Source: an uncultured Thiothrix sp. (GTDB lineage: Bacteria; Pseudomonadota; Gammaproteobacteria; Poriferisulfidales; GCA-002705445). From it: DNA of 51,457 nucleotides. This document shows, piece by piece, positions 2,773 to 42,955 of this stretch. Numbering within the stretch: position 1 is the stretch's first letter; the number at the start of each line of letters is the position of its first letter. The notes under the pieces were generated by a model that saw nothing but the letters and a program-made list of their open reading frames with translations, had not been told where the DNA came from and ran no database searches. Both the position numbers and the translations under genes were made by a program. The stretch spans positions 201,675 through 253,131 of the forward strand of contig CACJPG010000002.1 in NCBI GenBank assembly GCA_902595225.1. Reading direction: 5' to 3'.

Positions 2773-2958
2773 ATTAAGAAATACCGATGTACCGTTATAA
2801 TTATTTTTCCTTGAACCCTTGAGTTCAAGTGGGCTCTAGATTAAAGCATTAGGCTTCCTAAATATTTAGGTATGCACACCTACTTTAAGATTCTCGATCC
2901 CTTAGTAAAAATTAGGAACAAAGATTTAATAACTATATCGTGTACATCAGTACTTATT
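2773..2958 (-). ncRNA. ssrS: 6S RNA (ssrS)
   Basis: Global regulator RNA that mimics an open promoter and sequesters sigma-70 RNA polymerase. On the minus strand the 3' half aligns by eye to E. coli 6S: GGTGTGCATACC, then GGAAGCCTAATGCTTT (E. coli GAGAAGCCTTAAAACTG), then CACTTGAACTCAAGGGTTC (E. coli CACCTTGAACCAAGGGTTC), then ACGGTACATCGGTATTTC near the 3' end. The closing stem forms: 5' TACTGATGTA (2952-2943) pairs along 10 bp with 3' TACATCGGTA. The length of about 186 nt matches the 184 nt of E. coli. It lies just downstream of zapA on the same strand, the conserved gammaproteobacterial position. Ends are approximate; a TATATT at 2966-2961 could be the -10 box. Confidence 0.88.
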
Positions 2959-25333: not shown

Positions 25334-26325
25334 TGAAAAGAAGTATATTCAAAATAATATTTTTCTTATCTATTTTTTTTATAACCTTAAAATCATTTGC
25401 ATCGGATTTTTCGGGTGAATTAAGCGAATATGATGAGCAATTAAGAAAAATAGAAATGGAGTTACTCACAAAATATAAAGTTGATAAAGATTTTTCAAGA
25501 AAAGCTTTAAATTCTATTAAATTTCAAAATAAAATTTTAGATATTATGTCAAATGCACCCGAAAGAAAAGATACGTGGAGCCAATATAAAAAAAGATATT
25601 TAACAAAAGATAGAATTAATAATGGCATATTGTATTATAAGAATAACATTGGCCTATTAAAAAAAGTTGAATCTGTTTATGGCGTACCACCAGAGATATT
25701 AGTAGCTTTTTTAGGGGTTGAAACAAACTATGGTAGCTACACTGGAAAAATTAAAGTAATAGATTCCTTAGGCACATTAGCTCTTAAGCATCCAAGTAGG
25801 AATAAATTTTTTAGAGAACAATTGATAAACTTAATAGTTCTATCCTTCAGAAATAATTTAGACTATTTGCAGCTTAAAGGCTCATATGCTGGGGCAATGG
25901 GATTACCACAATTTATGCCAGATAATTACAGGAAGCTGGCAATTGATTTTGATCAGGATGGAAAAATAGATTTATGGAGCAGCAAATTAGATATTTATGC
26001 AAGCATTTCAAATTTTCTTAATAAAAAAGGTTGGAAGAAAGGAGAAAAGATATATTTGAGTATTAAAGTTGAAAAAAAATATATTCAAGAGATTTTTAAA
26101 AATGGAGATGTTAAAACAGTCCCTATTTCAAACAAAAAATTAAAAATTTATTCTGGTTATAAAAATTTAGATCAACAACAAAGGTATTTGATTCTTTTAG
26201 ATAAGAAAGAAGCGCAATATAAAATGGGTTTTAAAAACTTTAAAGTGATTATGAGGTATAATCCAAGTACCTTTTATGCGATGGTTGTTGCATTGCTTAG
26301 CGAGGAGATCAAAAAAGGCATATGA
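25333..26325 (+). CDS. mltB: Membrane-bound lytic murein transglycosylase B
   Basis: Cleaves glycan strands, leaving 1,6-anhydro-MurNAc ends. This 330-aa protein has a signal peptide (IFKIIFFLSIFFITLKSFAS) without a lipobox cysteine, so it is probably soluble periplasmic. The catalytic glutamate is in LGVETNYGSY, and the family segments GAMGLPQFMPDNYRKLAIDF and DLWSSKLDIYASISNFL are intact. The GTG start overlaps the mrdB TAG (TAGTG) and has a strong AGGAGG 6 bases upstream. Confidence 0.92.
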   Translation: MKRSIFKIIFFLSIFFITLKSFASDFSGELSEYDEQLRKIEMELLTKYKVDKDFSRKALNSIKFQNKILDIMSNAPERKDTWSQYKKRYLTKDRINNGILYYKNNIGLLKKVESVYGVPPEILVAFLGVETNYGSYTGKIKVIDSLGTLALKHPSRNKFFREQLINLIVLSFRNNLDYLQLKGSYAGAMGLPQFMPDNYRKLAIDFDQDGKIDLWSSKLDIYASISNFLNKKGWKKGEKIYLSIKVEKKYIQEIFKNGDVKTVPISNKKLKIYSGYKNLDQQQRYLILLDKKEAQYKMGFKNFKVIMRYNPSTFYAMVVALLSEEIKKGI

Positions 26326-28905: not shown

Positions 28906-29511
28906 GTGGATAAGATTTTAAATCATCAAGAAAATCTTTTAAAATGCAACAATTGCTCAGATATGGTTGGCTCTCCAATTGTTGGTAATCCTATTAAATC
29001 AAAAATAATCTTAATTGGGCAGGCCCCTGGGGTTAGAGAAGGCGAACTGCAAAGACCATTTGCATGGACTGCTGGGAAAAATTTATTTAAATGGTTTTCT
29101 TCGATAGGCGTCGGTGAGGAAAAGTTTAGAAAAAATGTATACATGTCAGCTGTGTGTAGATGTTACCCAGGAAAAAATATATCTGGTTCAGGAGATAGAG
29201 TACCATCGGATTTAGAGATTAAAAAATGCTCAAAATGGCTAAATTACGAATTAAAAACTTTAAATCCAAATTTAATCATCCCTGTTGGTAAGCTTGCAAT
29301 TTCACAATTTATCAATTTTGAAAAATTAAACGATGTTGTTGGAAAAAAAATTAAATATAAAAAAAAATTCTTAGATTCCGATTTAGTTTGTTTACCACAT
29401 CCTTCAGGTTTATCCACATGGTATAAAAAAGAGCCCGGAAAGTCTCTTCTTACAAAAGCTCTATGTTTAATAAAAAAAAATAAAAATTGGAAATCAATTA
29501 TTAGGAAATAA
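28906..29511 (+). CDS. Iron-sulfur uracil-DNA glycosylase family protein
   Basis: Probable family 4/5-type uracil-DNA glycosylase (201 aa). Motif 1 is GQAPGVREGELQRPFAW at about 38-54 and motif 2 is LPHPSGLSTWY at about 163-173. Cysteines C14 and C17, one of C84/C86, and C108 are spaced as the [4Fe-4S] ligands of this family. It uses a GTG start 2 bp after the dat stop and overlaps the convergent murU gene by 18 bp. The presence of dcd and thyA in the window is consistent with attention to dUTP, but no direct link is shown. Family 4 against family 5 is not resolved. Confidence 0.8.
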   Translation: MDKILNHQENLLKCNNCSDMVGSPIVGNPIKSKIILIGQAPGVREGELQRPFAWTAGKNLFKWFSSIGVGEEKFRKNVYMSAVCRCYPGKNISGSGDRVPSDLEIKKCSKWLNYELKTLNPNLIIPVGKLAISQFINFEKLNDVVGKKIKYKKKFLDSDLVCLPHPSGLSTWYKKEPGKSLLTKALCLIKKNKNWKSIIRK

Positions 29512-30159
29512 TTTTTCCACGAGTTTCAATCTTTCAGCATTACCTATGTCATGCCAAATACCTTTATGCTGAAAACCTGAGATTTTATCGGACTTTATTT
29601 TTTCTAGAAGAACATCAACTAGCTTAAATCTAAGTGAAGTATAATTTTTAAAAATCTCGTGATGAAGAATTGCAATACCACTATATGTAAGATTTTTTTC
29701 TTTATCTAATCGCACTCGACCATTTTTTAAAGAAAAATCACCTTCTTTGTTATGATCAGGATTTTTCACCATTACTATTGAAGCTAGGTCACCCTCTTTT
29801 AACTGTAAACTAGATAAATCAAAATCTGTGTAGATATCAGAATTTACAGTTAAAAATGGCTGATCACCAAGAAGTTTTAAGGCATTTTTTATGCCACCTC
29901 CAGTTTCCAAGGGCTCTGGCTCCTCTATAGAGTATTGGATACTAATACCATATTTTTTTCCATCACCAAGATAATTTATGATTTTATCTTTTAAATGACA
30001 AACGTTAATAACAATGTCGGTATAGCCATATTTTTTTAACAAAAATATATTATGTTCGATTAGACAGAACTTCCCAAATTTTATTAAAGGCTTAGGAATA
30101 CTTTTTGTTATCTCGCCAAAACGTTTCCCTTTACCTGCCGCAAGAATTATTGCTTTCAT
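29494..30159 (-). CDS. murU: N-acetylmuramate alpha-1-phosphate uridylyltransferase
   Basis: Nucleotidyltransferase of the peptidoglycan recycling shunt that makes UDP-MurNAc from MurNAc-1-phosphate, bypassing MurA. The 221-aa protein has the signature KAIILAAGKGKRFGEITK with SIPKPLIKFG, then LETGGGIKNALKLL and FLTVNSDIYTDFD. It follows amgK with a 29-bp overlap, the conserved partner order, which decides MurU over other sugar nucleotidyltransferases. Confidence 0.88.
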   Translation of the reverse strand: MKAIILAAGKGKRFGEITKSIPKPLIKFGKFCLIEHNIFLLKKYGYTDIVINVCHLKDKIINYLGDGKKYGISIQYSIEEPEPLETGGGIKNALKLLGDQPFLTVNSDIYTDFDLSSLQLKEGDLASIVMVKNPDHNKEGDFSLKNGRVRLDKEKNLTYSGIAILHHEIFKNYTSLRFKLVDVLLEKIKSDKISGFQHKGIWHDIGNAERLKLVEKLFPNN

Positions 30160-31117
30160 TTAAATTATAAATAGCCTCTTTTGCAAAAAAATTTATTGTC
30201 CTAAGATTATCATAATTAGAAGATGCGGTAATAATATAATTAAAAGTCCTTTTGAGATACTTTAAGTAGTCATTACGATTATTCTTTTTACTAAGCCGAC
30301 AAAATATTCCAGAAGCTTTCATATGCCTTTGTACAGAGAGCAGATAAAAATTATGCATTAATTCATCTTTCGAGAGATTATTTTTTGAAAAATTATTAAA
30401 ATTATCTCTGAAAAAGTTCAATAGTTTTTTTCTATTATTATCATTTATGTCCTTATAGCAATCATTCAATAAAGATACTAAATCGTAAAGTGGGGAACCG
30501 TACAATGCATCTTGATAATCAATTATTATAATCTCTTTATTCTTGTAAAAAATATTTTTTGAATGATAGTCTCTATGAACAAGAAACTTTCTTTTTAAAC
30601 TCAAATTATCAATTAATTTTATAATTTCTTTTTTAATTTTATTTTTTTCTTTATTTTTAATATCAAAACTAAAAAATATTTCAAGAACCCATTCGATAAA
30701 TAAAGAACTTTCTTTAAAATACTTTTCGTCCGAATAAAAAGAAATTTTTTTATTTCTCACTTTTTGTATTTTGATTATATTTTTTATAGATTTTTCATAG
30801 ATTTCAAAAAAATTCTTGGAATTACTTCTTTTAATTATCAGATTATCCCCAAAATCTTCAAGTGCTAGAATATTATTATCTAAATCTTTTTTAATTATTT
30901 TAGGAATTTTAATATTATTACTAGATAAAATATTTGAAAATTTTAAAAAATTTATAAAATTTCTTCTTTCTCTCGAACTATCCATAATTATTAGGCTTTC
31001 CCCACCCGCTGAAGCTCTATAATATTTTCTTTTACTTGCATCACCTTTAATATTTTCAATAATAAAGTTTTCCTCAAACAATTTTTTTGAAAATTTTTTA
31101 ATTATATTTGAAGTCAT
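30131..31117 (-). CDS. amgK: Anomeric MurNAc/GlcNAc kinase
   Basis: Aminoglycoside-phosphotransferase-fold kinase (328 aa) that phosphorylates MurNAc at C1 for recycling. The glycine-rich N-terminal lobe contains KGDASKRKYYR and LIIMDSS. The catalytic HxDxxxxN block is VHRDYHSKNIFY and the metal Asp lies in IIIIDYQDALYGSPLYDL. It is very Lys/Asn-rich. It overlaps murU by 29 bp downstream and the small lipoprotein upstream by ATGA, so all three are one transcript. Confidence 0.87.
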   Translation of the reverse strand: MTSNIIKKFSKKLFEENFIIENIKGDASKRKYYRASAGGESLIIMDSSRERRNFINFLKFSNILSSNNIKIPKIIKKDLDNNILALEDFGDNLIIKRSNSKNFFEIYEKSIKNIIKIQKVRNKKISFYSDEKYFKESSLFIEWVLEIFFSFDIKNKEKNKIKKEIIKLIDNLSLKRKFLVHRDYHSKNIFYKNKEIIIIDYQDALYGSPLYDLVSLLNDCYKDINDNNRKKLLNFFRDNFNNFSKNNLSKDELMHNFYLLSVQRHMKASGIFCRLSKKNNRNDYLKYLKRTFNYIITASSNYDNLRTINFFAKEAIYNLNESNNSCGR

Positions 31118-31239
31118 TGCAGTGATTCTGGTTTTGTTTCCTTAATAATTCTTTTGCCAACATTTTGGTCACATGCTGATACAAAAAGAATGATAATGAT
31201 TGAAAGCATGGTTATATTTTTTTTACTTATATTATTCAT
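31114..31239 (-). CDS. Small predicted lipoprotein (41 aa) upstream of amgK
   Basis: A short frame starting MNNISKKNITMLSIIIILFV and continuing SACDQN. Two lysines precede a hydrophobic core, then a lipobox V-S-A-C with the lipidated cysteine at residue 23, leaving a mature peptide of only 19 residues (CDQNVGKRIIKETKPESLQ). Asp at +2 is the inner-membrane retention signal in E. coli. The TGA stop overlaps the amgK start as ATGA, which supports real coupled translation. A TATAAT on the minus strand at 31251-31246 ends only 6 bp before the ATG, so the mRNA could be leaderless. I do not recognise the family. It could assist LPS or peptidoglycan-recycling proteins, but that is a guess. Confidence 0.6.
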   Translation of the reverse strand: MNNISKKNITMLSIIIILFVSACDQNVGKRIIKETKPESLQ

Positions 31240-31282
31240 ATATCTATTATACTATATATTAAATCTTATATTATGGACGTAT

Positions 31283-32950
31283 ATGAAGACCTCAGATTTA
31301 TTTATAAAATGTCTTGAAAATGAAGGAATAGAGTATATTTTCGGTGTGCCAGGCGAAGAGAATGCGGACTTTTTAATGTCCTTGCACAAGTCCAAAAAAA
31401 TTAACTTCATACTGACAAGACATGAGCAAGGCGCAGCATTTATGGCTGAATCGTATGGTAAATTAACAGGAAAACTCTCATGCTGTTTGAGTACTTTGGG
31501 TCCTGGTGCAACAAACTTATTAACTGGAGTTGCTGATGCGAATATGGATCATTCGCCAATTTTAGTAATTACGGGTCAAGGCTCTTCAGATAGATTACAC
31601 AAAGAGTCACACCAAATAATGGACGTATGCAATATGTTTAAATCGGTTACAAAGTGGACAACTTCTGTAAGAAACCCTTCGACTATTCCAGAGATTATTC
31701 GCAAAGCAGTTAGACTAGCAACATTAGAAAAACCTGGAGCCGTTCATATTGAGTTACCAGAGGACATTGCTAAACTTGAGATTGACGCTAAACCGTTAGA
31801 ATCATTTCCTTATAGAAGGTCAATTGCAGAAGACACTATTGTTTATAAAGCATACGAGTTAATAAAGAAATCAAAATCTCCAATACTTATAGCCGGCAAT
31901 GGAGCAATTAGAAAGAGAGCATCTCGACAGCTTAGGGAGTTCTGCGAAAGAACGGGTATACCAGTTGTAACAACTTTTATGGGCAAGGGTGCAGTTGACT
32001 GTGATTCAGAGTATTTTCTTTCAACTGTTGGGCTTGGTGCAATTGATTTTGGAGATATCGCAATAAAAAATTCGGATTTGGTGATAACTCTTGGTTATGA
32101 CATGGTAGAGTACCATCCTAAACTTTGGAGAAGTAACGCAAACTCAAATCTAATTCACATTGACTTTGAAGCAGCTGAAATCGATGAATATTATATACCT
32201 GAAGTTGAAGTTGTTGGTGACTTAGCACATTCACTCACGATGTTAAATAATTTTATTGACAAGGAAAAAGTCCCCATTTTTGAACTAAATTATCTTAAAA
32301 AAATAAAAGCTAGTATAAAAGAAGATGGAGAAAAATATATAAACGATAAACAAATTGGCTCTATAAAGCCCCAAAAATTTCTTCACGAACTACGACAATT
32401 CATGGGAAAGGATGATTTATTAATTTCTGATGTTGGCGCTCACAAAATGTGGATAGCAAGAGACTTTAAATGTCATGAACCAAATACATGTATCATACCT
32501 AATGGTTTTTGTTCTATGGGGTATGCGTTACCTGCATCAATTTCTGCATCAATGATCAACAATGATAAAAAAGTTTTTGCAATTTCTGGAGATGCTGGAT
32601 TTCTAATGAATGTTCAAGAAATGGAAACTGCAAGAAGATTACATTCAAATATTGTCATTATTATATGGGAGGATAATTCATATGGACTCATTAAGTGGAA
32701 ACAGCAAGTTCAATTTGGAGAATCTACTGATCTTGATTTTGATAATCCTGATTGGGAGAATCTAGCAAAATCATTTGGGTGGAATTATATTTTCGAGGAT
32801 AAAAGTACTAAAATTAATGAAAAATTAAAGTTAACAGAAAAGATGAAAGGCCCAACCTTATTTGTAATACCTATAGACTACTCAGAAAACGAAAAGCTTA
32901 CTAATTTTTTAAGTTCTTTGGAGGACGACTATGGCCAGAAAGATAATTAA
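31283..32950 (+). CDS. Thiamine-diphosphate enzyme, acetolactate synthase large subunit-like
   Basis: Pyruvate-oxidase-family ThDP enzyme of 555 aa from the ATG at 31283. An in-frame extension of 43 residues back to 31154 contains a hydrophobic stretch that no relative has, so I reject it. The catalytic Glu is in TRHEQGAAFMA, LSTLGPGATNLLTG matches the PYR domain, LVITLGYDMVEYHPKLW strongly recalls catabolic AlsS, and the cofactor-binding GDAGFLM...WEDNSYG is present. No regulatory small subunit is adjacent, which also fits AlsS. Its last 20 bp overlap an aldehyde dehydrogenase gene, so the real substrate may differ from plain pyruvate. Confidence 0.75.
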   Translation: MKTSDLFIKCLENEGIEYIFGVPGEENADFLMSLHKSKKINFILTRHEQGAAFMAESYGKLTGKLSCCLSTLGPGATNLLTGVADANMDHSPILVITGQGSSDRLHKESHQIMDVCNMFKSVTKWTTSVRNPSTIPEIIRKAVRLATLEKPGAVHIELPEDIAKLEIDAKPLESFPYRRSIAEDTIVYKAYELIKKSKSPILIAGNGAIRKRASRQLREFCERTGIPVVTTFMGKGAVDCDSEYFLSTVGLGAIDFGDIAIKNSDLVITLGYDMVEYHPKLWRSNANSNLIHIDFEAAEIDEYYIPEVEVVGDLAHSLTMLNNFIDKEKVPIFELNYLKKIKASIKEDGEKYINDKQIGSIKPQKFLHELRQFMGKDDLLISDVGAHKMWIARDFKCHEPNTCIIPNGFCSMGYALPASISASMINNDKKVFAISGDAGFLMNVQEMETARRLHSNIVIIIWEDNSYGLIKWKQQVQFGESTDLDFDNPDWENLAKSFGWNYIFEDKSTKINEKLKLTEKMKGPTLFVIPIDYSENEKLTNFLSSLEDDYGQKDN

Positions 32951-35064: not shown

Positions 35065-36036
35065 TTATACCACTCTATCTCTTGGTTCTTTATCGCTGTA
35101 ATAAGCTTCCATATTTTCTAAAACACGCATTCCCATAGCAATTCTTGTTTCAATTGATGCACTTCCTAAATGAGGAAGAAGAACAGCATTCTCACATTCA
35201 AGAAATCCTGGGTTTAATTTAGGTTCACCTTCGAATACATCTAGTCCCGCTCCAGCAATTTTATTATTTTTTAGAGCATCAATTAGAGCATCGTTATCTA
35301 TGACATCTCCTCTTGCAGAATTAATCAAATATGCACCTTTTTTCATTAATCCAATTCTTTCTTTATTCATTAAATGGTATGTGCTTTCACCACCTGGACA
35401 ATGAATAGAAACAAAGTCAGCTTTTTCTAAAACTTCTTCAACGCTTTTACATGGAGTAGCGTTATATTTTTTAATCACTTCGTCAGAGGGCATATATGGA
35501 TCAGAGAATATAATTTTCATTCCAAATCCGAAATGTGCTCGATCAGCAGTAGCTTGAGCAATTCTACCAAAACCAATACACCCAAGAGTTTTTCCAGTAA
35601 CTTGAGTACCACGAAGGTGTGTAGGTCTCCATCCGGCCCAATTACCGGCTCTTAATTCTCTCTCGCCCTCACCAGTTCTTCTTGCTACGCTTAAAAGTAA
35701 GGTCATTGCAATATCTGCGGTACAGTCAGTTAAAACCTCTGGAGTATTTGTCACAACAAGGTTTTCTTTTTTTGCGGCATCAAGGTCAATGTGATTAAAT
35801 CCAACACCAAAACTTGCAATAATTTTTGCTTTTTTATTTGGTACAGATAGCACCTCTTCATTTATTGGGTCAGTAACAGTTGGGCAAACACAATCGTAAT
35901 TTTGAAATGCTTCTTGAAGCTCAGGAATTGTAAGAGCAACATCATTCTCATTAAGTGTTACATCATACTTTTCTTTTAATTCTGCTTCTACTTCTGCTGG
36001 CCACTTTCTTGTAACTAATACTTTTGGTTTACTCAT
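35065..36036 (-). CDS. hprA: Hydroxypyruvate/glyoxylate reductase (D-2-hydroxyacid dehydrogenase)
   Basis: In the serine cycle hydroxypyruvate reductase turns hydroxypyruvate, made by serine-glyoxylate aminotransferase, into D-glycerate. The 323-aa sequence has the nucleotide-binding LGCIGFGRIAQA (about 151-162) and the catalytic triad R242 (NSARGDVID), E271 (DVFEGEP) and H289 (LLPHLGSAS). The ATG is preceded by GGAG. It is last in the cluster sgaA-mcl-mtkA-mtkB-hprA. The specific role is inferred from that context; the fold alone also fits GhrB or GyaR. Confidence 0.88.
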   Translation of the reverse strand: MSKPKVLVTRKWPAEVEAELKEKYDVTLNENDVALTIPELQEAFQNYDCVCPTVTDPINEEVLSVPNKKAKIIASFGVGFNHIDLDAAKKENLVVTNTPEVLTDCTADIAMTLLLSVARRTGEGERELRAGNWAGWRPTHLRGTQVTGKTLGCIGFGRIAQATADRAHFGFGMKIIFSDPYMPSDEVIKKYNATPCKSVEEVLEKADFVSIHCPGGESTYHLMNKERIGLMKKGAYLINSARGDVIDNDALIDALKNNKIAGAGLDVFEGEPKLNPGFLECENAVLLPHLGSASIETRIAMGMRVLENMEAYYSDKEPRDRVV

Positions 36037-36053
36037 TATTTACTCCAATTAAT

Positions 36054-36944
36054 TTATAAATGTTTTTCAATTACTTCTTTCATTTTGCTACCCATTTCAG
36101 ATGGGTTAGGAATTATATGTATACCTGCCTCTTTCAACAATTCAACTTTTTCTGCAGCGCTTTCACCTTTTCCAGATACTATTGCTCCAGCATGCCCCAT
36201 TCTTCTTCCTTTGGGTGCTGTAAGACCTGCAATATATGCAACAACTGGTTTTTTCATATACTTCTTAACGTATTCAGCTGCTTCAGCCTCCTGAGGCCCA
36301 CCTATTTCCCCAATCAACATAACCGCTTTAGTTTTGTCATCTTCATTGAATAATTCAAGAATATCTTTATGAGAGCTTCCATTTATTGGATCTCCACCGA
36401 TACCAACACTTGTTGAGATTCCAATTCCTTCCGCTTTCATTTGCGAAGCAGCTTCATAGCCTAAGGTTCCAGATCTTCCAATAACTCCGACATCGCCCGA
36501 AGTATAAATATGTCCTGGCATTATTCCAATCATAGCTTCTCCAGGTGTAATCGTTCCCGCACAGTTTGGACCAGTTAGAATCATCTTATCCTCTTTTTTA
36601 TATCTAAGCATGTATCTTTTAACTCTCATCATGTCATGAGCTGGGATTCCATCTGTGATAGATACAGCGTATTTGATTCCAGCATCTGCAGCCTCCATTA
36701 TTCCGTCTGCTGCAGCCACTGCCGGCACGAAAACAATTGTAGCTTCAGCACCCGTAGCATCTACTGCTTCTTTAACTGTATTAAAAACTGGTCTATCAAG
36801 GTGCTTTGTTCCACCTTTGCCAGGAGTAACTCCAGCAACAACATTTGTTCCGTAAGCAATCATCTCTTCTGCATGAAAGTTTCCAATACGACCTGTAATG
36901 CCCTGAACTAAAACTTTCGTATCTTTATTTAATAAAACCGACAT
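36054..36944 (-). CDS. mtkB: Malate--CoA ligase (malate thiokinase) alpha subunit
   Basis: With MtkA, makes malyl-CoA from malate, ATP and CoA, the step before malyl-CoA lyase in the serine cycle. The 296 aa follow Methylobacterium MtkB throughout: ILVQGITG-like start, NVVAGVTPGKGG, AVSITDGIPAHDMMRVKRYM, SVGIGGDPINGSS, and the phosphorylated histidine H251 in GRRMGHAGAI. The paralogue SucD is excluded by the neighbours and by the PAHDMM segment. Its ribosome site lies in a spacer whose first half duplicates the mcl-mtkA spacer. Confidence 0.93.
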   Translation of the reverse strand: MSVLLNKDTKVLVQGITGRIGNFHAEEMIAYGTNVVAGVTPGKGGTKHLDRPVFNTVKEAVDATGAEATIVFVPAVAAADGIMEAADAGIKYAVSITDGIPAHDMMRVKRYMLRYKKEDKMILTGPNCAGTITPGEAMIGIMPGHIYTSGDVGVIGRSGTLGYEAASQMKAEGIGISTSVGIGGDPINGSSHKDILELFNEDDKTKAVMLIGEIGGPQEAEAAEYVKKYMKKPVVAYIAGLTAPKGRRMGHAGAIVSGKGESAAEKVELLKEAGIHIIPNPSEMGSKMKEVIEKHL

Positions 36945-36953
36945 ATTTTATAT

Positions 36954-36973
36954 CCCCTATATTATTTTTTTGC
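36954..36973 (-). repeat. Intercistronic repeat, copy 1 (mtkA-mtkB junction)
   Basis: A 20-nt sequence on the minus strand, GCAAAAAAATAATATAGGGG, covers the last codons and TAA of mtkA and the GGGG ribosome site of mtkB. The same 20 bases recur at 38133-38152. The A7 run codes for Ala-Lys-Lys and is a possible slippery site. Confidence 0.7.
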
Positions 36974-38125
36974 AGCATCAACTGCTTTTTGTGCAGCATC
37001 TTTTAATGTATCTGCCAATATGATTGGAAGACCACTCTCTTTTATTATTTTTAATCCTTCTTCAACATTTGTCCCTGACAATCTAACTATTAATGGAATC
37101 TTCAAATCAACTGTTGGAATTATTTTAACTAAACCTTCAGCAATCCAATCACATCTATTAATACCAGCATAAACATTTACAAGCATTGCTTTTACATTAT
37201 CGTCCGCAAGCACAAGCTCGAATGCTTTTCCAACACGTTCTGGTGAAGCTCCACCACCAATATCAAGAAAGTTCGCTGGCTCACCACCACAATATTTAAT
37301 CATATCCATTGTGGCCATTGCTAAACCTGCACCATTAATCATACAACCAATATCTCCGTCTAAACCAACATAACTAAGATCATGTTCAGATGCTGCCACC
37401 TCTCTTTTATCTTTTTGACTATTGTCGTTAAGCTCATTAATCTCGGGATGTCTGAATAATGCATTATCGTCAAAGCTCATTTTCGCATCCAATGCAACAA
37501 GATTTTGGTCTTTCGTAAGAACAAGCGGATTTATCTCTAACATATTCATGTCAAGATCAACCATTGCTTTATAACAACCCATAAATAACTGAACAGCCCT
37601 TCCTAAAACTTCTTTAGGAAAATCGAGCGCAAAGCTTAATTCTCTTGCTTGAAAGCCAGTTAAACCAACAGCTGGATCAATTTCAACTTTTTTTATTGCT
37701 TCGGGCTTCTCTGCAGCAAGTTCCTCTATGGACATCCCTCCCTCAGCAGAAGCTACAATTACAATTCTTTGTTTAGCTCTATCCATTACGTATGCTAAAT
37801 AAATTTCTCTGTCAATATCACAACCTGACTCGATATATAACTTTTCAATTAACTTTCCGTGTTCGCCTGTCTGAATTGTTTTTAAATATGTTCCAAAAAG
37901 CTTTTCAGAAGCATTTCTTACTTCTTCGTCATTTTTGCAAACTATAATTCCTCCAGCTTTTCCTCTTGCGCCTGAATGAACTTGAGCTTTTACAACACAT
38001 ACATCAGTATCTAGTTCGTTATATGCTGCTACCGCCTCAGAAGTTTTTAATGCTAGTCTCCCATCAAGAGTTTGCACATTAAAGTTCGATAAAATTTCCT
38101 TCGCTTGATATTCGTGTATATCCAA
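36962..38125 (-). CDS. mtkA: Malate--CoA ligase (malate thiokinase) beta subunit
   Basis: ATP-grasp subunit of malate thiokinase, 387 aa. It follows Methylobacterium MtkA closely: MDIHEYQAKEIL start, VKAQVHSGARGKAGGI, MLEINPLVLTKDQ, LDAKMSFDDNALFR, GCMINGAGLAMATMDMIKY and NVYAGINRCDWIAEG. It starts with TTG; the GGGG 7 bases upstream and the conserved N-terminus support this codon. Housekeeping SucC is a close relative, but the malyl-CoA lyase and MtkB neighbours identify it. Confidence 0.93.
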   Translation of the reverse strand: MDIHEYQAKEILSNFNVQTLDGRLALKTSEAVAAYNELDTDVCVVKAQVHSGARGKAGGIIVCKNDEEVRNASEKLFGTYLKTIQTGEHGKLIEKLYIESGCDIDREIYLAYVMDRAKQRIVIVASAEGGMSIEELAAEKPEAIKKVEIDPAVGLTGFQARELSFALDFPKEVLGRAVQLFMGCYKAMVDLDMNMLEINPLVLTKDQNLVALDAKMSFDDNALFRHPEINELNDNSQKDKREVAASEHDLSYVGLDGDIGCMINGAGLAMATMDMIKYCGGEPANFLDIGGGASPERVGKAFELVLADDNVKAMLVNVYAGINRCDWIAEGLVKIIPTVDLKIPLIVRLSGTNVEEGLKIIKESGLPIILADTLKDAAQKAVDAAKK

Positions 38126-38132
38126 AACAGTT

Positions 38133-38152
38133 CCCCTATATTATTTTTTTGC
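38133..38152 (-). repeat. Intercistronic repeat, copy 2 (mcl-mtkA junction)
   Basis: Identical 20-nt copy of the junction sequence at 36954-36973, here covering the end of mcl (Ala-Lys-Lys-stop) and the GGGG ribosome site of mtkA. Confidence 0.7.
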
Positions 38153-39088
38153 GTTAATTGCTTTATCAGTTTCAACAATATTCTCTGCCATTTTTGCTGA
38201 TGCAGCGTCAATCAGTCTTCCGTCCAATGATGCTGCTCCTTGACCTGCTTTTGCAGCTTCATCTAAAGCTATTAAAATTCTTTTTGCTTTATCAACTTCT
38301 GCGGGTGGAGGCGTAAATACTGCGTTTGCTAATTCAATTTGAGAAGGGTGAATAGCCCACTTTCCTTCATAACCTAAAGCTGCAGCTCTTTTTGCAGCCA
38401 AAGTATAACTTTCAGGATCTTTAAAATCCCCAAATGGCCCATCTATTGCTCTTAAGCCATATGCTCTACATGCAACAAGCATTTGCGATAAATCAGCATG
38501 CCACTGATCTCCTGGGTAGTCTGGGTTTAAACCACCAATGACTGTTGTACGTGCTCTGCAGCTTGCGGCATAATCAGCAACTCCAAAATGCATTGCCTCA
38601 AGTCTTTCTTCTCTGCCAGATTTAGCAATGTCCATTACATTGGCCATGCCTAGAGTAGTTTCAATTAAAATTTCAATACCAATACGTTTTTTTAGGCCAG
38701 TTGAAGTTTCAATTTGGTTAAGTAATGCAGAAAGCATATAAACGTCAGAAGCTGTTCCAGCTTTTGGGAGCAAAATAGTGTCAAGATGTTCACCTGCTTG
38801 TTCTACTACTTCAATTACGTCACGATACATATAATGCGTGTCAATGCTATTAATTCGTACAGAAACAGTTTTTCCATTTCCTTGCCAATCAAGATCCTGA
38901 AGAGCTTGAATTACATTTTTTCGAGCTGTAACTTTGTCGTCTGGTGCTACGGCGTCCTCTAGATCTAAAAAAACAAAATCAACATCACTATTCAAAGCTT
39001 TTTCAAACATTTTTGGGTTAGAACCTGGAACAGCAAGCTCACTCCTTTGAACTCTTCTAGAAGTTTGTTCGTAAATTTTATGACTCAT
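38141..39088 (-). CDS. mcl: Malyl-CoA lyase
   Basis: Splits malyl-CoA to acetyl-CoA and glyoxylate, the carbon-releasing step of the serine cycle. This 315-aa CitE-superfamily protein matches Methylobacterium Mcl over its length: RRVQRSELAVPGSNPKMFEK, the metal and CoA region VFLDLEDAVAPDDK, IDTHYMYRDVIEVVE, HFGVADYAASCRART, VACRAYGLRAIDGPFGDF and KWAIHPSQIELAN. AAGGA before the ATG is the ribosome site. It lies 32 bp after sgaA and 15 bp before mtkA. Confidence 0.94.
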   Translation of the reverse strand: MSHKIYEQTSRRVQRSELAVPGSNPKMFEKALNSDVDFVFLDLEDAVAPDDKVTARKNVIQALQDLDWQGNGKTVSVRINSIDTHYMYRDVIEVVEQAGEHLDTILLPKAGTASDVYMLSALLNQIETSTGLKKRIGIEILIETTLGMANVMDIAKSGREERLEAMHFGVADYAASCRARTTVIGGLNPDYPGDQWHADLSQMLVACRAYGLRAIDGPFGDFKDPESYTLAAKRAAALGYEGKWAIHPSQIELANAVFTPPPAEVDKAKRILIALDEAAKAGQGAASLDGRLIDAASAKMAENIVETDKAINAKK

Positions 39089-39120
39089 TTTTTTATCCTT
39101 TTTGTTTTTTATTTATTTTT

Positions 39121-40359
39121 TTATTTCTTTTTCTTCTTTTTTTTGGTTTTATCAGGATTACTTGTCCAATATTTTGCTGCGGCGCCTGTCCCACTTCCGG
39201 GTGTGAACTTAATTCCAGCATCTATCATAGCCATTTCTACTCCTCCGAGCGCAGCCATCATTCTTGCTTCATTATTATCACCAAGATGCCCAATTCTAAA
39301 AACTTTACCAGCAACTTGAGTAAGACCAGCGCCGAGAGAAATGTTATATCTATGGTATGCGATATTAATAACTTCTATTGCTTTTTTTCCATCTGGGTTA
39401 TTTTTTGAACCTGGCTCAAGCCAAATTGCACTTACAGTATCAGACTGCCATTTTGGAGATGATGCAGCTAACCTCAATCCCCAAGCCTTAATTGCAGCTC
39501 TAACACCACTCGCTAATCTATTGTGCCTATAAAATACATTTTCCATGCCTTCTTCAAGCAAAAGATCTATTGCTACTCTTAATCCTCTAAGTAAGTTAAC
39601 TGGAGGCGTGTATGGAAAAAAACCATCTTTATTTGTATTTAGATGGTCTTGAATATCAAGAAAGCATCTTTTACATTTTGCCGTTTTTCTCATTGCAAGA
39701 GCTTTTTTGCTAAAACAAAGAATTGCTAAGCCAGCCGGAAGCATAAAACCTTTCTGAGAGCCACTTACAGCAATATCTATTTTCCATTTATCAAATCGAA
39801 ACGGCACACTTGCTATTGAACTTACTCCATCGACCATTAAAAGTGCCGGATGCTTAACCTGATCCATTGCTTTCCTAAGGCCTTCAATATCGCTTGTCAC
39901 ACCAGTAGCGGTTTCATTATGGCAAACTACAACTGCTTTAATTTTTTTATCCTTATCTTTTGCTAAAGCTTTTTTGAATTTTTCGATTTCGATACCATTC
40001 CCCCATTTCGTATCAATCAGTTCCACGTCAAGTCCGATACGTTTAGCAAGGTCATACCAAAGATGACTAAATTGTCCAAATCTTGAGGTAAGTATTTTAT
40101 CGCCTGGCGACAAAGTATTTGCGAGCGCAACTTCCCAACCAGCAGTTCCAGTCGCAGGAAATATAAATGGTGTACCTGTTTTTGTTAAAAATACTTTTTT
40201 TAAATCTCTAAGAATTGGCTTTACAAGTTCTGGAAAATCTGGCGCTCTATGATCTTCCATAGGAACATTCATTGCATTTTGAACTACAGTTGGTATGTGA
40301 GTTGGTCCTGGAGCAAATAGGTAATTTCTTCCAGGATATGATAGTTTTTGACCAGGCAT
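39121..40359 (-). CDS. sgaA: Serine--glyoxylate aminotransferase
   Basis: PLP enzyme that converts serine and glyoxylate to hydroxypyruvate and glycine, a diagnostic serine-cycle step. 412 aa. The N-terminal FAPGPTHIPTVVQNAMN and MEDHRAPDFPEL, the VDGVSSIAS segment and the PLP lysine K203 in VSGSQKGFMLPAG are typical. The C-terminus ends in an unusual run of seven lysines after DKT, encoded by A-rich DNA. AAGGAAG precedes the ATG. It heads the sgaA-mcl-mtkA-mtkB-hprA series, 135 bp downstream of folD. Confidence 0.94.
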   Translation of the reverse strand: MPGQKLSYPGRNYLFAPGPTHIPTVVQNAMNVPMEDHRAPDFPELVKPILRDLKKVFLTKTGTPFIFPATGTAGWEVALANTLSPGDKILTSRFGQFSHLWYDLAKRIGLDVELIDTKWGNGIEIEKFKKALAKDKDKKIKAVVVCHNETATGVTSDIEGLRKAMDQVKHPALLMVDGVSSIASVPFRFDKWKIDIAVSGSQKGFMLPAGLAILCFSKKALAMRKTAKCKRCFLDIQDHLNTNKDGFFPYTPPVNLLRGLRVAIDLLLEEGMENVFYRHNRLASGVRAAIKAWGLRLAASSPKWQSDTVSAIWLEPGSKNNPDGKKAIEVINIAYHRYNISLGAGLTQVAGKVFRIGHLGDNNEARMMAALGGVEMAMIDAGIKFTPGSGTGAAAKYWTSNPDKTKKKKKKK

Positions 40360-40438
40360 AATTTTTTCTTCCTTTAAGTTGTTTAATTTAAATAATTCTT
40401 CCGAAATCTATGTTTTTATTCAATATAATAAGGCGTAA

Positions 40439-40467
40439 ATAATGCCATAGCATCATGTGAGGCTCAA
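40439..40467 (-). promoter_or_regulatory. Candidate sigma-70 promoter for sgaA operon
   Basis: In the 124-bp gap between folD and sgaA, the minus strand has TTGAGC at 40467-40462 and CATTAT at 40444-40439 with a 17-bp spacer. This would start transcription near 40432 and give a leader of about 70 nt. Two mismatches in each box make this tentative. I found no recognisable riboswitch in the leader. Confidence 0.35.
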
Positions 40468-40494
40468 CCCTTAATTATTGGTAACCTAATAGAT

Positions 40495-41370
40495 TTACTT
40501 GTCTTTTGGGATTATACCCTGAAGTTCTGCAGCTTTCATGGTATTTTCAAGCAAACACGCTACTGTCATTGGTCCTGTTCCACCTGGCATAGGTGTAACA
40601 GCAGCTGCAATCCCATCAACATCGTTAAAATCAACATCTCCTTGAATGCCCTTTCCATCACTGCTAATTCCAACATCTAAAAGAATCGCTCCTTTTTTGA
40701 CATTTTTTGAATTAATAATGTTTGGGACCCCTATTGCAGGTACAACAATTTCTGATTCTTTTATCAGATCATCTAGATTTTTCGTTCTCGAATGTGCAAG
40801 GGTTACAGTACAATCGATTCCCTTTGAGCCAAGCATAAGAACTTGTGGCATGCCAACTAATCTCGATCGACCAATGACAAGGGCTTTTTTCCCACTCGTT
40901 TCAATATTGTAATGTTCTAATAGCTTCATGACGCCTAGTGGAGTGCATGGATTTAAAATATTATTTCCTACGATAAGCTTACCAAGGTTTTTTTCCTTCA
41001 AACCATCGACATCTTTGTTTGCTGGAATAGTTTCAATCACATCTTTTTCATTTAATCCCTTAGGTAAAGGCATTTGAATCAATATCCCATTCACAGAAGA
41101 ATTGTCACCAAGCTCCTTAATTTTGCTTTCTAAGTCTGACTGAGAAATATCTCCTGGTAAATTTACTTGTAAAGATTTTATTGATGATGAAACTGCTTGT
41201 TTATGCTTATTATTAACATAAAGTTGGCTAGGTTTATCATCCCCAACCAAAACTGTCACCAACGTGATTTCTAAATTTGATTCATCGATTCTATTCTTAA
41301 TATTATTTTGAATATCCTTTGCGACAGCCTTACCGTCTAATATTAAAGTTCCTTTTTCAGTATAGTTCAT
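40495..41370 (-). CDS. folD: Bifunctional methylene-THF dehydrogenase / methenyl-THF cyclohydrolase
   Basis: Interconverts 5,10-methylene-, 5,10-methenyl- and 10-formyl-THF. The ATG at 41370 gives 291 aa with a standard N-terminus (GTLILDGKAVAKDI). A longer open frame to 41454 would overlap the upstream gene and has no family counterpart. Visible are Y51 and the catalytic K55 (YVNNKHKQ), IQMPLPKGL at 98-106, DVDGL at 120-124, GRSRLVGMP at 167-175 and TPMPGGTGPMT near the end. It follows the Ftr-like gene by 25 bp and precedes the serine-cycle genes, so it should supply methylene-THF for serine formation. Confidence 0.94.
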   Translation of the reverse strand: MNYTEKGTLILDGKAVAKDIQNNIKNRIDESNLEITLVTVLVGDDKPSQLYVNNKHKQAVSSSIKSLQVNLPGDISQSDLESKIKELGDNSSVNGILIQMPLPKGLNEKDVIETIPANKDVDGLKEKNLGKLIVGNNILNPCTPLGVMKLLEHYNIETSGKKALVIGRSRLVGMPQVLMLGSKGIDCTVTLAHSRTKNLDDLIKESEIVVPAIGVPNIINSKNVKKGAILLDVGISSDGKGIQGDVDFNDVDGIAAAVTPMPGGTGPMTVACLLENTMKAAELQGIIPKDK

Positions 41371-41395
41371 TTTATTTTGTTTATTTTTATTAAGT

Positions 41396-42319
41396 TTAAG
41401 TCTTAGGTTGTTTTTCAGGATGAAGATAAATAAAGCTTTTTCCGAGTTTCCCATTGTAATTTCCAGCAGATATCATTAGAAGATCAGTAGTATCTTTTGA
41501 AGCAGATATTGCAGCTTGTGTAGCATTTATAATTGAACCCATATCTTTGCCATTCATAATAATTTCCATAACTGAGTTTACTCCTTCTGGCAATCCAGCC
41601 TCTATATCTGGATTATTTTGGAGCATTGGACAAAATTTCTCATATGTACTCGCTATTGTAAAATCATAATCACTTCCAGCTTTAGAGCCACTTCCTGCAA
41701 TACCCCCGGGGAATGTAGTGATCACATTTGGCATTGGCAAAATTGCCTCAACACCTTTTTCTGCAGCTTCAAGTGCTGACTCAACCGTCTTGCCAAAAAA
41801 CCAAAGATTTCCGCCCATTAGCCCGTCGGCAAATCCAAATCTTCTATCAAGGATAAATTCTCCACCAAGTATCGGTATCCACCACATTTTTCTTCCATAT
41901 CTCTCGATTCTTTTTTGGTATTTGTTTCCAAAGAAGGCAACTTTTTTACCAAGTTTAAAATACAATTCATCATCATCAATACAATTAAAACAAGATGCAG
42001 TAGGACAAGTCAGAATGTTCTGACTAATTCGAACAAGGGCAGCCTTTTCAAGTTTTTTCGGGTCTTTCCAAAATTTCGGTATATGTAATTGTATTATCGC
42101 ACCCGGTCTTCCATCAGGGGTTTTTACGCTTTCGTCAAATCCTGGCCCGACATATCTATCAAGACCAGCTTCGCAATCACACAAAATACTACTTGACGCA
42201 TTTCCTGTTGCAGCATTAACTGCATGTTCTAGCCATTTTTTATTTATTGCTGTGATTAAAATTTCTGAATATATACTTTTAAACGCTTCTGCGTATGTAT
42301 CATCAATTATCGCTGACAT
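41396..42319 (-). CDS. Formyltransferase homologous to Ftr/FhcD (formylmethanofuran:H4MPT type)
   Basis: 307 aa, the size of archaeal Ftr and methylotroph FhcD. Family blocks in order: DDTYAEAFKS (6-15), CDCEAGLDRYV (47-57), TPDGRPGAI (67-75), LTCPTAS (103-109), ILGGEFILDRRFGF (150-163), FPGGIAGSGSKAGSDYDF (203-220), NSVMEIIMNG (248-257) and MISAGNYNGKLG (282-293). Canonical Ftr transfers formyl from formylmethanofuran to N5 of tetrahydromethanopterin. No FhcABC, Mch, MtdB or Fae gene is in the window. It is instead sandwiched 3 bp after the 5-formyl-THF cyclo-ligase gene and 25 bp before folD, so a folate-linked role is possible. TAGGAG precedes the ATG. Homology is clear; substrates are not. 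Confidence 0.87.
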   Translation of the reverse strand: MSAIIDDTYAEAFKSIYSEILITAINKKWLEHAVNAATGNASSSILCDCEAGLDRYVGPGFDESVKTPDGRPGAIIQLHIPKFWKDPKKLEKAALVRISQNILTCPTASCFNCIDDDELYFKLGKKVAFFGNKYQKRIERYGRKMWWIPILGGEFILDRRFGFADGLMGGNLWFFGKTVESALEAAEKGVEAILPMPNVITTFPGGIAGSGSKAGSDYDFTIASTYEKFCPMLQNNPDIEAGLPEGVNSVMEIIMNGKDMGSIINATQAAISASKDTTDLLMISAGNYNGKLGKSFIYLHPEKQPKT

Positions 42320-42322
42320 AAC

Positions 42323-42955
42323 TTAACTCCTACCTTTTCCTATATAAACATCAAGTTCAGTAACAACTTTATCCATATAAACATCATGGGGAGCGACTAG
42401 TATTTCATCAAATAATTGAGATTCATAACAAAGAGCAATTAATGAGCATTCGGGTCTAACTTGCTCCATTGTTCTATCATAGTATCCTTGGCCGTTTCCC
42501 ATTCTTCCGCCAGATCTATCAAAACCTGTTCCAGGAACCATAATCATGTCTAATTCCTGAGGAGTTACTTCTTTCTCTGGATTACCCCACAGTTCTTTTG
42601 GAGGCTCCAAAATATTCCATTTTCCAACTACCATTTCCTCAAGGGACGTCATGTGCCAGAGACCAAGTTTGTTTTCACCATTTTCGTCTTCTGTGCAATA
42701 CGGCACAATAATTTTTTTCTCTCCTTTTTCAACCTCGCTTATTAAATGAGGTTTTGTTCTTGTTTCAGATCTACAATCGATATACCACATTATAACATTT
42801 GCACTCTCGTACTCTGGAAGAGCCATAAATCTCTCGCATGCTTTTGCGCTTACTTCGTCTTTATTTTCTTGAGCTGCTCTTCTATCGTATGCTTCTCTTC
42901 GCATACCAGCTTTTTTTTCCATTATTTTTTCAAGCTCTTCTTTGGATATCGTCAT
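42323..42955 (-). CDS. ygfA: 5-formyltetrahydrofolate cyclo-ligase
   Basis: ATP-dependent conversion of N5-formyl-THF to 5,10-methenyl-THF. 210 aa. The ATP/folate loop PGTGFDRSGGRMGNGQGYYD spans 141-160, preceded by IIVPYCTED, and the N-terminal KAGMRREAYDRR supplies basic residues. An AAGGAG precedes the ATG. It is first in the series with the Ftr-like gene and folD. In related gammaproteobacteria this gene normally follows zapA and 6S RNA; here it is absent from that site and sits in the C1 cluster. Whether a second copy exists elsewhere cannot be seen. Confidence 0.92.
   Translation of the reverse strand: MTISKEELEKIMEKKAGMRREAYDRRAAQENKDEVSAKACERFMALPEYESANVIMWYIDCRSETRTKPHLISEVEKGEKKIIVPYCTEDENGENKLGLWHMTSLEEMVVGKWNILEPPKELWGNPEKEVTPQELDMIMVPGTGFDRSGGRMGNGQGYYDRTMEQVRPECSLIALCYESQLFDEILVAPHDVYMDKVVTELDVYIGKGRS

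Follow-up and report, generated by a model that had tools for sequence, protein, structure and literature searches.

A conserved gene for a putative 41-residue lipoprotein directly before amgK-murU in one family of small-genome gammaproteobacteria

Entericidins (PF08085) are small lipoproteins with a short mature peptide. Another very small lipoprotein, LptM (YifL; PF13627), carries a short N-terminal motif after its lipobox. According to the excerpted text of PMC10567701, LptM has Gly at position +2 and goes to the outer membrane, its N-terminal motif is kept in other Proteobacteria while the C-terminal region is poorly conserved outside Enterobacteriaceae, and the lipidated N-terminus lies near the hinge of LptD in a predicted model that exchange data support. 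The amgK and murU genes of the MurNAc salvage route are neighbors in Caulobacter (CCNA_03649 and CCNA_03650; excerpts of PMC13046382), and amgK-murU pairs elsewhere consist of the same neighboring genes, without a lipoprotein frame directly before amgK in the 24 loci examined. Here we describe such a frame in a stretch of 51,457 nucleotides (the window) from an uncultured Thiothrix sp.

The frame occupies positions 31114..31239 of the minus strand, from ATG to TGA, and translates as MNNISKKNITMLSIIIILFVSACDQNVGKRIIKETKPESLQ followed by the stop: 41 residues with a VSAC lipobox, Cys23, 19 mature residues and Asp at +2. Residues 1-22, ending in V-S-A before Cys23, form the predicted signal peptide (31174..31239); they are followed by the eight codons of CDQNVGKR (31150..31173), referred to below as the core, and by a C-terminal tail of residues 31-41 (31117..31149), all on the minus strand. 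The TGA overlaps the amgK start codon (ATG at 31117) as ATGA (31114..31117, minus strand). The signal peptide with its lipobox, the length of the mature part, Asp at +2 and the overlap had been proposed by the first-pass annotation of this DNA, and all of them are present in the sequence. The usual lipoprotein features (a charged n-region, a hydrophobic stretch and a lipobox ending in Cys) were found in 11 of 11 family sequences with a PS51257-type pattern, applied in what we take to be its form, and a stricter lipobox pattern, [LVI][ASTVI][GAS]C, fits 9 of the 11. At one locus (L007) the pattern match halted at an earlier cysteine (19) and gave a wrong mature length; the cysteine of CDQN also follows a lipobox there, as judged by eye. 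The likelihood of such a frame by chance was gauged by shuffling: when the dinucleotides of the 166-base intergenic stretch were shuffled 20,000 times, 3,176 shuffles gave some frame of 30-60 aa and none gave a lipobox frame of that size, by a filter that is strict (it passes over an RlpA-like frame of the window itself, at 26322) and was chosen after the frame had been seen. The filter being post hoc, conservation is therefore the real test of the frame.

The 31114-31239 frame is a real gene. A lipoprotein frame of 38-47 residues stands directly before amgK in 10 of the 10 genus genomes that have an amgK start (of 11 sampled for the genus, including the window's own), and the single genome sampled from a sister genus (G011) has a diverged frame of 31 residues, MIRIFFICIIYIAVVQTSLTACSQNVEVEKK, in the same place. 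One genus member, G003 (L012), was left out of all orthologue counts, because it has only a fragment of amgK, from residue 125 on, joined to another gene. All 11 family sequences have the lipobox cysteine, and the 10 genus members all share Asp2-Gln3 in the mature peptide; G011 has Ser2-Gln3. Loss of the frame in close relatives and a variable lipobox cysteine, named at the outset as grounds for abandoning the gene, were both absent, the former in all 10 testable loci of the genus. Used as the sole query, the window protein recovers all nine loci of the other genus members (E values from 2.6e-10 to 6.4e-4) and misses the G011 frame, its one match in that genome (E 0.263) lying elsewhere; a profile match to the G011 frame at E 1.6e-9 is not independent, as the alignment contains the G011 sequence. 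A scan of further contigs returned three loci, whose contigs match those of G001, G005 and G006 in length and which are hence not independent. As to G003, a shortened dehydrogenase-like frame lies head to head with the amgK fragment in that genome (L113, 3848-5225, C19), which points to an inversion or an assembly misjoin.

Selection on the peptide is uneven along its length. Over the 10 genus sequences (G011, L013, left out), the whole frame has a pN/pS of 0.56 (0.41-0.74 in 200 bootstraps); by part, the signal peptide has 0.61, the core 0.08 and the tail 0.89. When the core is translated in the two alternative frames, the ratio is 1.40 and 2.34, and each of these frames is broken by stops at all 10 loci; differences within the core at codon positions 1, 2 and 3 amount to 0.114, 0.050 and 0.325. 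The ratio of synonymous to nonsynonymous change, which the first-pass annotation had suggested as a check on the 41 residues, thus marks the core as constrained and the signal peptide and tail as loose, and these figures indicate that constraint acts on the protein, above all on its first eight mature residues.

The layout proposed for the peptide, with a lipid anchor, a short fixed N-terminus and a free tail, is shared with LptM, but the motif CDQNVGKR is unlike that of LptM, and the peptide is unlike the entericidins by motif, too. Neither PF13627 nor PF08085 matches any of the 11 family members. Elsewhere in the 12 family genomes, PF13627 has matches at E up to 1 in 11 and over the cut-off in one, and the window's genome holds a separate LptM-like lipoprotein frame of 46 aa (L147, 256-396, G000:C2) with SCGQTGDLYLPE at the lipobox. 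Weak PF08085 matches occur elsewhere in 9 of the 12 genomes, none over the cut-off, and the two that were read look entericidin-like by eye; separate entericidin-like frames below that cut-off are found in the window's own genome (L145, 186-341, G000:C7; GCNTFDGIGRDISAAAEWVSGA) and in G009 (L146, 149-283, G009:C4). A weak match to the NF038215 family lipoprotein of Acinetobacter (E 0.028; 14.2 bits against a cut-off of 33) covers residues 6-25, i.e., signal peptide and lipobox, with no match past residue 25. No convincing match came from Pfam or NCBIfam when the window protein and the 11 family members were scanned, and low E-values, such as those of TIGR04313 in 5 of the 11 members (best 4.3e-05), are taken to be signal-peptide matches. 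The initial impression that the peptide fits no known family agrees with this, since no Pfam or NCBIfam model fits it.

Outside the family, 38 genomes have an amgK match. In the 24 of these loci that were examined, a lipobox-type frame occurs once within 450 nt upstream and never directly before amgK; the single case (L021, G046) is an unrelated GTG-start frame about 200-320 nt upstream of the amgK match, ending in CWKPHNSKTRQ, and may be due to chance. Profile searches for relatives covered the order (20 genomes) and the class (369 genomes). In the latter, 45 of 369 genomes gave matches at E up to 0.05, three of which belong to the window's genus; 11 loci of the other 42 genomes were inspected (L077-L085, L098, and L099), and a lipobox-like segment was seen in nine. 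Two of them are reminiscent of the core: L080 (E 4.4e-4) reads SCDQN and then KKSDEK (SCDQNKKSDEK) in an open frame of 1012 residues, and L082 (E 0.0017) reads ACSQSVED (ACSQSVEDNS), like the sister genus, in a frame of 273 residues. Neither is counted as a relative, because both are N-termini of much larger open frames, and descent of the small frame from the N-terminus of a longer lipoprotein of this kind is possible. A scan of viral sequences confirmed no relative. Within the searches made, the frame is a predicted small lipoprotein gene restricted to one family of small-genome gammaproteobacteria.

The genes that follow it encode an amgK-like sugar kinase with an APH domain (30131..31117, minus strand; NCBIfam NF045759, E 2.1e-40) and a murU-like uridylyltransferase (29494..30159, minus strand; NF045761, E 2.1e-72). 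Each model is the best NCBIfam match of its protein, and both scores miss the equivalog cut-offs (138.8 vs 550 bits for amgK, 243.6 vs 250 bits for murU). An amgK-like protein is present in 50 of 55 relatives searched. AmpG-type permease genes and genes of glycoside hydrolase family 3, the family of NagZ, were found in 12 of 12 family genomes, the latter being a broad family also found in 10 of 14 control genomes; AnmK was found in 8 of the 12, and two of the four genomes without it are more than 90% complete. A MurNAc salvage route in the family is credible, even with the amgK-like and murU-like scores under those cut-offs. In all 10 genus loci, the distance from the lipoprotein stop to the nearest amgK ATG is between -14 and +6 nt; one locus (L009) is ambiguous, with several in-frame starts. 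So tight a junction is consistent with translational coupling. The earlier proposal of a real lipoprotein gene coupled to amgK-murU is upheld by the frame's position directly before amgK (10/10) and by selection on its core.

Usual spacing from a -10 box would put the transcript start of the frame at its start codon. A -10 box, TATAAT (31246..31251, minus strand), lies six bases 5' of the ATG, and the arrangement TATAGTATAAT-N6-ATG is kept in 10 of 10 genus loci, with no room for a ribosome site between the box and the frame. Because this TATAAT-N6-ATG spacing is kept in all ten, a leaderless mRNA is predicted for the lipoprotein frame. In G011 the spacing is N16: the same 11-mer as TATAGTATAAT is followed by 16 bases with AAGGGAG and then by ATG, and AAGGGAG, as a putative ribosome site, supports translation of the frame independently. 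The geometry as such is about as frequent as in the control (31 vs 25 matches of TATAAT-N6-ATG genome-wide; 1 match vs 2.08 expected in the window), and therefore only the conservation of the -10 box counts. A consensus promoter scan, which also demands a -35 hexamer, did not return the frame's -10 box. Ribosome sites were assigned to 14 of 41 starts, one of which, at 31284, is misplaced by one base (the ATG is 31283-31285).

This last start belongs to a divergent gene (31283..32950, plus strand), which we take to be acetolactate-synthase-like; it begins 43 bp from the lipoprotein start, and the same neighbor is found in G011. The 43 bp between the two divergent starts (31240-31282) contain the -10 box of the lipoprotein gene, so that two promoters share a very short stretch. 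The window also contains a 6S RNA (2777-2956, minus strand, 87.5 bits) and, at 35065-42955, a run of minus-strand genes resembling what we presume to be one-carbon and serine-cycle enzymes.

Inner-membrane retention of the lipoprotein is plausible. The retention rule of E. coli (Asp at +2, in most cases followed by Asp, Glu or Gln) holds for the window protein and for 10 of 10 genus members and does not hold for G011. Asp2-Gln3 fits the Lol-avoidance signal of E. coli, and the excerpted text of PMC6469965 treats the +2 rule as not general outside Enterobacteriaceae and questions it, Asp2 occurring in only 3 of 17 inner-membrane lipoproteins of P. aeruginosa. Ser at +2 in the sister genus means that inner-membrane retention may not be general, and the proposed location is therefore, in view of this and of the doubts raised in PMC6469965, a reasonable guess. 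A LolB-like gene was found in 10 of 12 family genomes (over the cut-off in 5 of 12); the two without a match are the window's own genome, which is 84% complete, and G001, at 97%.

Our preferred reading, to which we would give about an even chance, is that the 41-codon frame opens a lipoprotein-amgK-murU operon and that its product is a lipidated inner-membrane peptide docking on an envelope protein, most likely in the setting of peptidoglycan turnover or recycling. Translation of the lipoprotein would start on a leaderless mRNA, with that of amgK coupled to it; Sec, Lgt and LspA, the general lipoprotein pathway, would yield a lipidated peptide of about 19 residues, which Asp2-Gln3 would hold on the periplasmic side of the inner membrane. 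Because only the lipidated Cys and DQNVGKR are under strong selection, this short N-terminus would be the docking part, as in LptM on LptD, and the peptide would not be an enzyme. We infer the tie to MurNAc recycling from the position of the gene: AmgK and MurU being enzymes of the cytosol, a lipopeptide that faces the periplasm can have no direct contact with them, and co-transcription alone suggests the link. A more specific version makes the lipopeptide a dedicated inner-membrane subunit of muropeptide recycling: docked on an AmpG-type permease, or else on a lytic transglycosylase, it would adjust the uptake of muropeptides to the AmgK-MurU branch encoded on the same mRNA. It strikes us as improbable; no accessory lipoprotein of muropeptide recycling appears among the literature matches listed or in the excerpts of PMC13046382, and the matches listed for small leaderless lipoproteins and peptidoglycan recycling contain nothing on this family.

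The placement of the lipopeptide and of AmgK-MurU on opposite sides of the inner membrane would also suit a lipoprotein with work apart from peptidoglycan recycling, for example in membrane or envelope-stress homeostasis in either membrane, that merely shares a strong promoter with amgK-murU. Ser at +2 in the sister genus points the same way, as does amgK without such a frame in most relatives outside the family (1/24, unrelated); against this, the frame immediately precedes amgK at each of the 10 genus loci that can be judged and does so in the sister genus as well, and we regard such unrelated work as unlikely, though a rival to be taken seriously. The frame might also serve mainly as a translation leader, a short leaderless frame that brings ribosomes to amgK and whose peptide is of little weight. 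The lack of room for a ribosome site before it, the tight or overlapping amgK junction in 10 of 10 loci and the loose tail are what one would expect of a leader, but selection acts on its core at the protein level, all 11 sequences retain the lipobox pattern, and the sister genus frame has a ribosome site of its own; we think this role improbable.

Similar size and layout, together with the short N-terminal motif described for LptM in the excerpts of PMC10567701, could be read as signs of a diverged LptM or entericidin. Membership in either family was rejected on the absent motifs, with no PF13627 or PF08085 match in 11 members, and on the separate genes fitting those families in the same genome, and we consider it very improbable. 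A chance frame over a conserved promoter region would be in keeping with the partial conservation of the upstream stretch as DNA (14 of 52 columns invariant) and with how common the leaderless geometry is; the selection pattern, i.e., the core ratio set against the other frames, refutes it, and the codon-position pattern, the stops that interrupt both alternative frames at all 10 loci, the invariant cysteine and the 0 of 20,000 shuffles leave it a practically negligible likelihood.

The gene is one that family libraries miss: it fits no Pfam or NCBIfam model, yet across the sampled genus eight of its residues are conserved and the others drift. If the peptide does act by docking, it would be a further example, beside LptM, of a lipid anchor and a few residues serving as a protein part. 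It would be, to our knowledge and among the literature matches listed, the first lipoprotein linked to the salvage branch of AmgK and MurU.
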